Shown here: in pieces, positions 59,934 through 62,354 of the stretch
Layout of the letters: the number at the start of each line of letters is the position of its first letter
Position numbering within the stretch: position 1 is the stretch's first letter
NCBI RefSeq assembly: GCF_000025625.1
Contig: NC_013922.1
Location: 1,674,001 to 1,738,000 of the forward strand
Direction: 5' to 3'
DNA length: 64,000 nt
Source of the DNA: Natrialba magadii ATCC 43099
Lineage (GTDB): Archaea > Halobacteriota > Halobacteria > Halobacteriales > Natrialbaceae
Made by a program: the position numbers and the translations under genes
The notes under the pieces: generated by a model
What the model was told of the DNA's origin: nothing
Databases searched by the model: none
Seen by the model: only the letters and a program-made list of their open reading frames with translations

Positions 59934-60242
59934 ATGGTACGAGAAGACGGTAAACGAAACTTCGCGCTGCGATCGTCGAACGGTGAAGAAGAAAGTGTGT
60001 TCTCTGGGAACACGCCACGGCAGGCAGCACTCAAGGCGGCTCGTCGGCTCGAACCCGGCTCCAGTGAGGATGAGGCCGACCGCACCGAACTCCGACTCCG
60101 GGAGAAGGGGACGGACAAGGTCCATATCTACGACGGCTGGGCCTGGGAAGAGACGGCACCCGACGACAAACCGGACTGGATGCCGAACGAGATCACGGAG
60201 GCGAACGTCTCCAAGAAAGGTATCGATCACCTGGACGAGTAA
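59934..60242 (+). CDS. MC1-type chromosomal protein
   Basis: 102 residues, typical length: MVREDGKRNFALRSSNGEEE, NTPRQAALKAARRLEPG and VHIYDGWAWEE match the DNA-bending chromosomal protein MC1 of methanogens and haloarchaea. TATATTTATG (59890-59899) and TGGAG 9 bases ahead of the ATG give promoter and ribosome binding site. Acts in chromatin architecture and DNA protection. Divergent from the AbrB-like gene, about 235 bp apart. Confidence 0.9.
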   Translation: MVREDGKRNFALRSSNGEEESVFSGNTPRQAALKAARRLEPGSSEDEADRTELRLREKGTDKVHIYDGWAWEETAPDDKPDWMPNEITEANVSKKGIDHLDE

Positions 60243-60352: not shown

Positions 60353-61189
60353 TCAGTCGGCGTACTCTGCTCGCTCTACTGAGTCACCCGAATCGGTTGG
60401 GCCGCCCGAAGCACTCGACCCACCCGAACCGCCAGAACCGCCAGAACCACCAGAACCGCTCGACCCACCCGAACCGTCCCGACTCCGAGAGCGATCACGG
60501 TCGGTTCCGATCGAGAGCAGCACAGTCGCAGCAGCCGTCTGTGAGAGTGCCGTGCGGCTCCGAACTACGATCGCACCGAAGCCGAGGATGAGGATCACCT
60601 CGACGTAGATCACGACCAGTTGTCCCACGAAATCGTCCGCGAGGCCCGCACCTTGTGCCATGATCCCGGTCGCAACCAGCCCGACCCAGCCGAGCACGAT
60701 GAGATACTTAAGTTTGCTAAACAGCAGTCGTCGTTCAGACTCGAGTGCCGCCGCGGCACGAGTGAAGGGGCCGAACAGGAGGTAGAGCCCGAACCCGAGG
60801 GCCGCGAAGGTTCCGAGGGTCGCGACGAGGGCGAGGGTACCGTCGACGAACCAGCTGCCGAGCGTGATCCAGAGCCGGCCGAGGACAGCGGCAAACAAAA
60901 ACAGCGTGAGCCGTCGGTCGACACCGGCAACTGAACAGACCACGAGGACGATCACGGTCCACATGGCGGTGTAGCCGAGGAACCGAAACAGGTCCGTGTC
61001 CGCGCCGGAGATCCCGTTTACCAGGGCCATCACGACGTACGCCAGCCCCATCGAACCGGCTGCGACGGCTGCAGCGTAGCCGTACTGATTCGGGCCGTCG
61101 GGCAGGGTTCTCGAGTAGCCGACGAAGATAGCTGCGGCCGAAATGAAGACGATACTCGAAACCACGAGCAGCACGAACATGTCGATCAT
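60353..61189 (-). CDS. Opsin-related seven-helix protein lacking the retinal lysine
   Basis: 278 residues with seven hydrophobic helices and a bacteriorhodopsin-like layout. The helix B region YGYAAAVAAGSMGLAYVVMA, helix C RFLGYTAMWTVIVL, helix F LGWVGLVATGIMAQGAG and helix G VEVILILGFGAIVVRSR align with bacteriorhodopsin. At the Schiff-base position (Lys216 in AKVGFG) there is Ile (ILGFG), Asp85 is replaced by Gly, and Trp182, Tyr185, Pro186 and Trp189 are lost, so retinal binding is very unlikely. A Ser/Gly tandem tail (GGSGGSGGSGG) follows. Type 1 opsins of this lysine-less kind are known in haloarchaea; function unknown. Confidence 0.85.
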   Translation of the reverse strand: MIDMFVLLVVSSIVFISAAAIFVGYSRTLPDGPNQYGYAAAVAAGSMGLAYVVMALVNGISGADTDLFRFLGYTAMWTVIVLVVCSVAGVDRRLTLFLFAAVLGRLWITLGSWFVDGTLALVATLGTFAALGFGLYLLFGPFTRAAAALESERRLLFSKLKYLIVLGWVGLVATGIMAQGAGLADDFVGQLVVIYVEVILILGFGAIVVRSRTALSQTAAATVLLSIGTDRDRSRSRDGSGGSSGSGGSGGSGGSGGSSASGGPTDSGDSVERAEYAD

Positions 61190-61535
61190 AACGACTCCCC
61201 GCTGTGTGTGAACGTGGACGGTGGTCGAACGCGGTGCAACGAGTATCGTCTCGAACGGGCGTGTGATCGTGTCATCTGTGGTCGTCTTCGGAGAGCGGTC
61301 GTGAGAGCGGGATGTGCACACGACTGTCTCGACATGAGATAACTGTTATCGCCGATTCGGGAGCGTGAGCACGGACAAAGTCGGTAACGTGAGCACGGGC
61401 GGAGTCGGGAGCGCAGGGACGAACGGACGGTAAAAGGGAGCCAGAGTGGAGATAGTCAACCATACCGATACAAACTCCGGCAATCGTCCGTTCGAACCCC
61501 GGGTATTTTGACCGTCTCTCGGCAAACAGAAGGCG
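61190..61535. other. Intergenic region with short direct repeats
   Basis: 345 bp between two divergent genes. GGAGCGTGAGCACGGAC and a similar CGTGAGCACGGGC (61358-61424) repeat with a period of about 30 bp. GTATTTTGACC at 61503-61513 is about 27-33 bp ahead of pheA, the leaderless-promoter spacing. No gene seen. Confidence 0.6.
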
Positions 61536-62354
61536 ATGACTGCAGTGACTCTCGGCCCAGAAGGAACCTACTCTCACCGGGCGGCCCAGGCGATCGCCGA
61601 CGCAGACGCAATCGACTTTCGCCAGTCCGTCACCTCGATCGTCGACGCCGTCGCGACCGGCGAGTACGACCGCGGCGTGATCCCCATCGAAAACAGCATC
61701 GAGGGCAGCGTCACGGAGAGTCTCGACGCGCTCGCCGAGTACGACGTCGCCGTCGTCCGCGAAATCGTCACGCCGATCAAACACGCACTCCTCGCACAGG
61801 GGCCGGGCTTCGAAACGATCGCCAGCCACTCCCAGGCGCTTGCACAGTGTCGCTCCTATCTCGAGCGCGAGTATCCCGACGCCACGCTCGAAGCCGTCGC
61901 GAGCACGGCCCAGGGCGTCGAGTTCGCCCGCGAAGATCCCACAATCGCCGGCATCGGCCACCCCGCCAACGCCGACAACGCCACCGAACTCGAGGTCCTC
62001 GCCGAAGACATCCAGGATCAAGACTCCAACGCGACACGGTTCTTCGCCGTCGCGCCCGCCGAGGACCGCTCGAAAGGCGGCGGCAAGACAACGCTGGTCG
62101 TCTACCCGAACGCGAACTATCCTGGCCTGCTACTCGAACTCCTCGAACCGTTCGCCGACCGGGATATCAACCTGACCCGCGTCGAGTCCCGGCCGAGCGG
62201 CCGGCGACTCGGAGACTACGTCTTCCACGTCGATATCGAGGCGGGGCTCTACGAGGCGCGGACCAACGAGGCGATTGCCGAACTCGAGGAACTCGCCGAG
62301 AAGGGGTGGGTCCGCCGACTCGGCTCGTACGATCTCGAGCACGTCGTCGAGTGA
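61536..62354 (+). CDS. pheA: Prephenate dehydratase
   Basis: Converts prephenate to phenylpyruvate in phenylalanine synthesis. 272 residues: TLGPEGTYSHRAAQAI (5-20), PIENSIEGSVTESLD (about 50-64) with the catalytic Thr-Arg-Phe in NATRFFAVA (about 166-174), then an ACT domain with ESRPSGRRLGDYVFHVDIE (about 218-236), the Phe-binding feedback site. So Phe inhibition is expected. The chorismate mutase domain of enterobacterial PheA is absent, as is usual in archaea. Single gene, with promoter as described for the upstream region. Confidence 0.95.
   Translation: MTAVTLGPEGTYSHRAAQAIADADAIDFRQSVTSIVDAVATGEYDRGVIPIENSIEGSVTESLDALAEYDVAVVREIVTPIKHALLAQGPGFETIASHSQALAQCRSYLEREYPDATLEAVASTAQGVEFAREDPTIAGIGHPANADNATELEVLAEDIQDQDSNATRFFAVAPAEDRSKGGGKTTLVVYPNANYPGLLLELLEPFADRDINLTRVESRPSGRRLGDYVFHVDIEAGLYEARTNEAIAELEELAEKGWVRRLGSYDLEHVVE

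Follow-up and report, generated by a model that had tools for sequence, protein, structure and literature searches.

The window analyzed here is a 64,000-nucleotide stretch of the Natrialba magadii ATCC 43099 genome (assembly GCF_000025625.1, contig NC_013922.1, positions 1,674,001 to 1,738,000). Near its end lies a gene that a preliminary description, made from the sequence alone, had placed at window positions 60353-61189 as encoding an opsin-like protein that cannot bind retinal. Placement and frame were correct: the gene is on the minus strand, begins with ATG, and encodes 278 amino acids. The following features make up the locus.

60353..61189, minus strand: lysine-less opsin (opsin-related protein, ORP, group B), 278 amino acids, ORF from ATG, with residues 1-225 as its core
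60356..60514, minus strand: C-terminal tail, residues 226-278, Gly/Ser-rich, of low model confidence, ending in ERAEYAD
60402..60476, strand not assigned: tandem repeat coding for the Gly/Ser part of the tail, in units of 9, 18, and 27 bases
61186..61275, minus strand: mini-ORF of 29 codons, its TGA stop overlapping the start of the ORP gene (ATGA), a candidate leftover of the start of a deleted transducer gene
61338..61350, strand not assigned: palindrome GATAACTGTTATC, a promoter-side element of the htr-orp operon
61536..62354, plus strand: pheA (prephenate dehydratase), divergent neighbor and locus marker
59934..60242, plus strand: MC1 chromosomal protein gene, convergent neighbor and locus marker

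The Gly/Ser tail mentioned in the preliminary description is real, and the DNA encoding it is a 9-base tandem repeat. Tails of relatives are shorter and unlike that of the N. magadii protein; many ORPs have a variable tail followed by a short acidic end such as AD, HAD, or PAD.

A Pfam scan of the ORF gave Bac_rhodopsin as its sole match, at 24.8 bits against a cut-off of 24.6, and 23 of 29 relatives scanned (E 0.01) matched this family and no other. The single ORF sequence matched rhodopsins in the PDB weakly, at about 3e-04; a profile of the 29 relatives matched sensory rhodopsin II (SRII) of Natronomonas pharaonis at 7.4e-30, followed by bacteriorhodopsins. Modeling of the full-length protein gave a poor structure (pLDDT 48.9). 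Removal of the tail gave an AlphaFold2 model with a pLDDT of 87.0 and a pTM of 0.84, which stood far above the other four of the five tail-less models (pLDDT 76.6, 68.2, 55.5, and 53.4). Its top Foldseek match was SRII 3qap (E 5.6e-07, TM 0.85), and VIA-align 2 returned Z scores of 26-27 to many microbial rhodopsins over 205-218 residues. Family profile and model superposition both place the predicted product in the seven-helix microbial (type 1) rhodopsin fold, the fold that had been proposed for it. A better match to an unrelated seven-helix family had been named as the outcome that would speak against an opsin; none was found in Pfam, with the 29 relatives, among PDB sequences, or among the best 50 PDB folds. 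The NCBIfam matches of the ORF were weak and driven by the tail or by composition, and the best phmmer match of the whole protein, 2l6h_A, was to a Gly/Ser linker; both were discarded.

Alignment located the codons at key positions of the retinal site of bR and SRII.

60587..60589, minus strand: Ile201 codon, at the position of bR Lys216 and SRII Lys205
60974..60976, minus strand: Gly72 codon, at the position of bR Asp85
60599..60601, minus strand: Glu197 codon, at the position of bR Asp212
60875..60877, minus strand: Arg105 codon, at the position of bR Met118

Replacement of the helix G lysine by Ile (Ile201) and of the helix C Asp by Gly (Gly72) was as previously described. The Schiff-base lysine of a photochemically active rhodopsin is missing, with Ile201 in its place. 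The only two lysines in the protein, K159 and K161, are both found at the beginning of helix F, which leaves no other membrane lysine able to substitute. The aromatic residues of the pocket had been described as gone. This is true of bR Trp138, Tyr185, and Trp189, which align with Thr124, Leu171, and Gly175, but Trp86 is replaced by another aromatic residue, Tyr73, and Trp182 is kept as Trp168; Trp77 and Arg105 now occupy pocket positions by alignment. The RSR motif closing helix G is present at residues 210-212 but is not shared across the family, with Arg210 found in 16, Ser211 in 14, and Arg212 in 3 of the 18 members of the clade defined below. A paralogue, WP_004267173 of Nab. magadii, had no 480-580 nm peak with retinal (Becker et al. 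2016, PMC4915679). As neither helix G nor any other membrane segment has a lysine, and a paralogue gave no absorbance peak, loss of covalent retinal binding in the N. magadii protein is a well-supported prediction. The lysine loss supports the non-photochemical role that the preliminary description regarded as a necessity but does not compel it, given that non-covalent retinal or another chromophore could be used.

The N. magadii genome has three lysine-less opsin genes. Within the che/fla cluster (L041:9334-12734), one HtrII-like transducer gene, Nmag_2880 by position, lies between two different lysine-less opsin genes, all on one strand. We take PMC3403918, cited below, to be the report of Siddaraju et al. 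2012. It lists Nmag_1701, Nmag_2879, and Nmag_2881 as lysine-less, distant homologues of rhodopsin, with Nmag_2879 and Nmag_2881 adjoining transducers (PMC3403918). Since two of the three lysine-less genes flank the che/fla transducer, the window gene is, by elimination, Nmag_1701. Haloarchaeal ORPs of group B were described by Becker et al. (2016, PMC4915679), who counted 48 lysine-less proteins, a large share, among 170 haloarchaeal opsins, included N. magadii with three ORPs, and found transcripts for eight of nine ORPs tested, N. magadii being among the species tested. With Nmag_1701 (PMC3403918) and the ORP class (PMC4915679) both published, the gene and its class are already known; the locus history reported here is new. 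Group B ORPs have a hydrophobic residue in place of the Schiff-base lysine, keep Tyr199 and Arg72, and lie near the sensory rhodopsins, and the same holds for the N. magadii protein. Some are linked to HAMP/MCP transducers and some are not, which does not set the N. magadii protein apart from the group. The part of Becker et al. (PMC4915679) available to us reports unlinked ORPs, but not an ancestral operon, a gutted transducer, a palindrome, or an Asp66/Arg105/Glu197 signature, and the available part of PMC3403918 includes the same gene without its locus history. We found neither the transducer loss nor the palindrome in the open-access literature.

The gene was compared with its relatives across the order (L numbers denote loci and G numbers genomes; G000 is the N. 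magadii genome). A receptor search of 392 genomes gave 89 with a match at 1e-5, canonical opsins included. The sample comprised 60 loci with flanks, which are part of the match list, plus L007. These loci contained 67 matching genes including that of the window, and since one of them (L100) bears the lysine, 66 were lysine-less. In a tree with 38 canonical opsins, a single branch (100/99) set all 66 lysine-less rows apart, and L100 grouped with SR. The window gene belonged to an 18-member clade (99/100) inside the lysine-less ORPs, within which the seven Natrialba genes grouped together (100/99). The phylogeny that the preliminary description had called for thus places the gene with the lysine-less ORPs, apart from BR, HR, and SR. 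The sole canonical opsin of N. magadii is a lysine-bearing halorhodopsin (G000:C1:2654074-2654748, L001).

The clade has residues of its own. The lysine position is I, L, or V in 18/18 members (Ile in the N. magadii protein). The position of Glu197 is Glu in 18/18 members and Asp in all 48 other lysine-less ORPs, and Asp66 and Arg105 are each present in 18/18 members and in none of the other 48. Judging from these three residues, the former retinal pocket is likely charged.

Gene order within the clade suggested a history for the locus. A transducer gene directly precedes the receptor gene in 9 of the 18 members, with a 4-base overlap or a 2-base gap, and the other nine have none. pheA lies within 5 kb of 12 of the 18, four with the transducer (L048, L052, L054, and L007) and eight without it (the seven Natrialba loci and L057); no transducer gene was present at the pheA/MC1 locus in any of the seven Natrialba genomes. 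The transducers are of the HtrII-like family, the che-cluster copy matching the SRII transducer 2f95_B at 4.6e-31. Their tree mirrors that of the receptors, with a pheA-type clade (99/98) and the same two subclades, which indicates that the pair is old and that the transducer was lost later. It was lost on three or more occasions, in the ancestor of Natrialba, in L057, and in L053.

L057 shows such a loss directly: the palindrome is followed after 83-86 bases by an ATG with ~30 transducer-start codons and a short transducer-like end, all in frame, and the stop of this remnant overlaps the receptor start as GTGA. The Natrialba loci had no significant transducer homology by tblastn (one weak match, L042, E 0.018). 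An ATGA/GTGA junction is kept in 7/7 Natrialba loci with an open frame before each, and in L042 and L043 this upstream frame begins MRRPQLTPDR, compared with MVIDTLTPDR for the L054 transducer. These similarities are suggestive of the Natrialba mini-ORF being a leftover of the transducer start. Other frames are also open at this place in some species, so openness of the mini-ORF alone proves nothing. Receptor-side loss was seen in three cases. The pheA locus of G240 (L134:8282-10141) mirrors the Natrialba case, with an intact transducer and a receptor cut to its last helices (~94 residues); in G106 and G347, a pheA-type transducer is present, but no receptor was found next to it. In G362, a second, diverged transducer start is present near a contig end (L131:9681-10781), and its reading frame looks odd near that end.

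The sequence GATAACNGTTATC occurs as one exact copy in the 4.44-Mb N. magadii genome (4,443,643 bases), at window positions 61338-61350. It is found at the same place in 7/7 Natrialba genomes, three of which have one or two further copies, and in L048 and L052 it lies 86 bases upstream of where the transducer begins. Looser forms occur 81-85 bases before the transducer in the other pheA-type operons (for L051, counted from a moved start), and in the Natrialba rows a related palindrome precedes the che-cluster transducer by 104-108 bases (106 in N. magadii). Four sites of the form RATAACNRTTATC occur in the N. magadii genome, including that of the window and one before the che-cluster transducer. 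The other two are at G000:C1:1065266 and G000:C3:111461. With 11 of 13 as the minimum score, the palindrome was found at 8/8 che-type transducers, 9/9 pheA-type transducers, and 9/9 transducer-less clade members; of 400 shuffled patterns, 0, 0, and 2, respectively, did equally well. Since pheA-type and Natrialba sites were the source of the pattern, an independent check is given by the che-type set alone, in which seven of eight rows represent a single genus. Among transducer-less ORPs outside the clade, 2/16 reached a score of 12. By sequence and position, a promoter element of the ancestral pair has evidently been kept in Natrialba.

The receptor ORF is open in 7/7 Natrialba genomes. The dN/dS of its core was 0.14-0.37 in nine pairs, with bootstrap upper bounds of 0.19-0.55; the closest trio was less strict (0.31 and 0.37). 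The transducer-linked paralogues of the che cluster gave 0.14-0.25 for ORP2 (nine pairs) and 0.09-0.16 for ORP1 (three pairs). These codon comparisons demonstrate purifying selection on the receptor since the loss of the transducer. The predicted coupling surface is also conserved. Tyr195 is present in 66/66 lysine-less ORPs, and its SRII counterpart, Tyr199, touches the transducer (Becker et al. 2016, PMC4915679). The 25 unlinked ORPs retain R153 (24/25), L155, L156, and K159 (25/25 each) where helix F begins. Arg69 (SRII Arg72) is present in 62/66 lysine-less ORPs. Open frames, low dN/dS, and conserved coupling residues together argue that the receptor was retained once its partner had been lost. 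No covariation between receptor position 189 and transducer position 43 was seen in the alignments by eye. N74 is the partner residue in the SRII system.

The receptor outpaces its neighbors, with 69-75% amino acid identity (whole ORF) to its three nearest Natrialba relatives compared with 97% for PheA. All three N. magadii ORPs had a dS of 0.65-0.99 to the nearest Natrialba (G000 versus G223, G362, and G303). In the same comparison, dS was ~0.25-0.46 for PheA, the transducer, CheR, and CheC, and MC1 was also high. The high ORP values could stem from allele exchange or from weaker codon bias in the receptors.

The N. magadii genome has only one close full-length transducer match, the one in the che/fla cluster. 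Among 24 genomes searched, with transducers counted at E 1e-35 or better, 20 had one, three had two, and one had none (G380, 85% complete); lysine-less receptors numbered up to five per genome. The presence of CheA was considered as a discriminator and rejected, as it is found in 300 of the 392 genomes of the order and is too common to inform. We propose, with about even confidence, that the window gene encodes a retinal-free receptor that has lost its own transducer and now signals via a shared transducer elsewhere. As the sequence comparisons show, the ancestor of the gene lay immediately downstream of an HtrII-like transducer gene of its own, which was deleted in the Natrialba lineage, with promoter element and receptor kept. 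The receptor would sense a non-light cue via a remodeled, charged pocket (Arg105 and Glu197) next to the old Arg82/Asp212 site. The signal would pass via helix F/G contacts to a transducer in trans, most likely the HtrII-like one of the che/fla cluster, and on to the archaellum motor, and several lysine-less receptors per cell may share one transducer. The partner in trans, the output, and the non-light cue are those we infer from these comparisons. Several observations weigh against signaling through a shared transducer. The che-cluster transducer already has two adjoining ORPs, and the pairing in trans is conjectural; the palindrome before it may reflect shared ancestry rather than co-regulation; and the dN/dS values of the closest trio are less strict than the others. 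Of 10 species whose group B ORPs are transducer-less, three have been described as non-motile (Becker et al. 2016, PMC4915679), pointing to other outputs.

The main rival is a receptor that works without a membrane transducer, in the manner of Anabaena sensory rhodopsin, with a soluble cytoplasmic partner binding at the start of helix F and an output in transcription or metabolism rather than swimming. The helix F motif, kept in unlinked ORPs, would be available to a soluble partner, and 25 of the 66 lysine-less ORPs lack an HtrII-like gene within 1 kb; many of these fall outside the clade of the window gene. Becker et al. (2016, PMC4915679) also proposed roles other than motility for group B ORPs that are unlinked. 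No such partner was seen, however, among the 17 marker proteins placed around these genes; the Natrialba neighbors are pheA, MC1, a peptidase, phe-tRNA synthetase, a peroxiredoxin, and Hsp20, and other clade members lie at different loci. Conservation of Tyr195, the counterpart of the transducer-touching SRII residue, in 66/66 ORPs likewise weighs against a soluble partner, which we consider unlikely, although it is the strongest of the alternatives.

Two further explanations are less probable still. The receptor could be a relic that lost its transducer and is drifting to decay. Partner genes have been lost in both directions in the family and the receptor evolves faster than its neighbors, but the ORF is open in every Natrialba genome, its core dN/dS is well below 1 even at the upper bounds, transducer-linked paralogues evolve at similar rates, and the promoter palindrome is kept in 7/7; decay is thus improbable. 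The least probable explanation, to which we give very little credence, is that the protein is still a light sensor, with retinal, a carotenoid, or another chromophore bound non-covalently. An alternative chromophore was left open by Becker et al. (2016, PMC4915679), and the one canonical opsin of N. magadii is a halorhodopsin. Against light sensing stand the loss of Trp138, Tyr185, and Trp189, the presence of Trp77 and Arg105 at pocket positions in the alignment, and the paralogue that did not bind retinal (PMC4915679). Moreover, the Brp/Blh family (PF15461) is absent in 7/7 Natrialba genomes despite the N. magadii halorhodopsin, though another beta-carotenase, Nmag_4083, is annotated in N. 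magadii (PMC3403918).

Two characterized systems provide a comparison. SRII-HtrII of N. pharaonis has the same fold, the transducer-then-receptor gene order that is seen in relatives of the N. magadii gene, Tyr199, and a transducer of the same family; unlike it, the N. magadii ORP lacks the lysine, the retinal pocket, and an adjoining transducer gene. Anabaena sensory rhodopsin is a sensory opsin that binds retinal and has no membrane transducer. The N. magadii ORP likewise has no adjoining membrane transducer, but the soluble transducer of the Anabaena system has no counterpart among the 17 markers placed.

More broadly, and tentatively, retinal-free receptors and HtrII-like transducers might form an exchangeable set, a generalization that we hold with less confidence than the reading of the N. 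magadii gene itself. A genome would have one to five receptors and usually one close transducer; receptors would move in and out of the operon, either partner could be lost, and unlinked receptors would signal in trans. Some transducers gutted in frame would leave behind a promoter, a start, and an overlapping stop that drive translation of the receptor. The family offers natural experiments in both directions, with receptors that lack a transducer and transducers that lack a receptor. For N. magadii, the locus history leads to a direct test, with one named receptor and one candidate transducer that has a related promoter palindrome.
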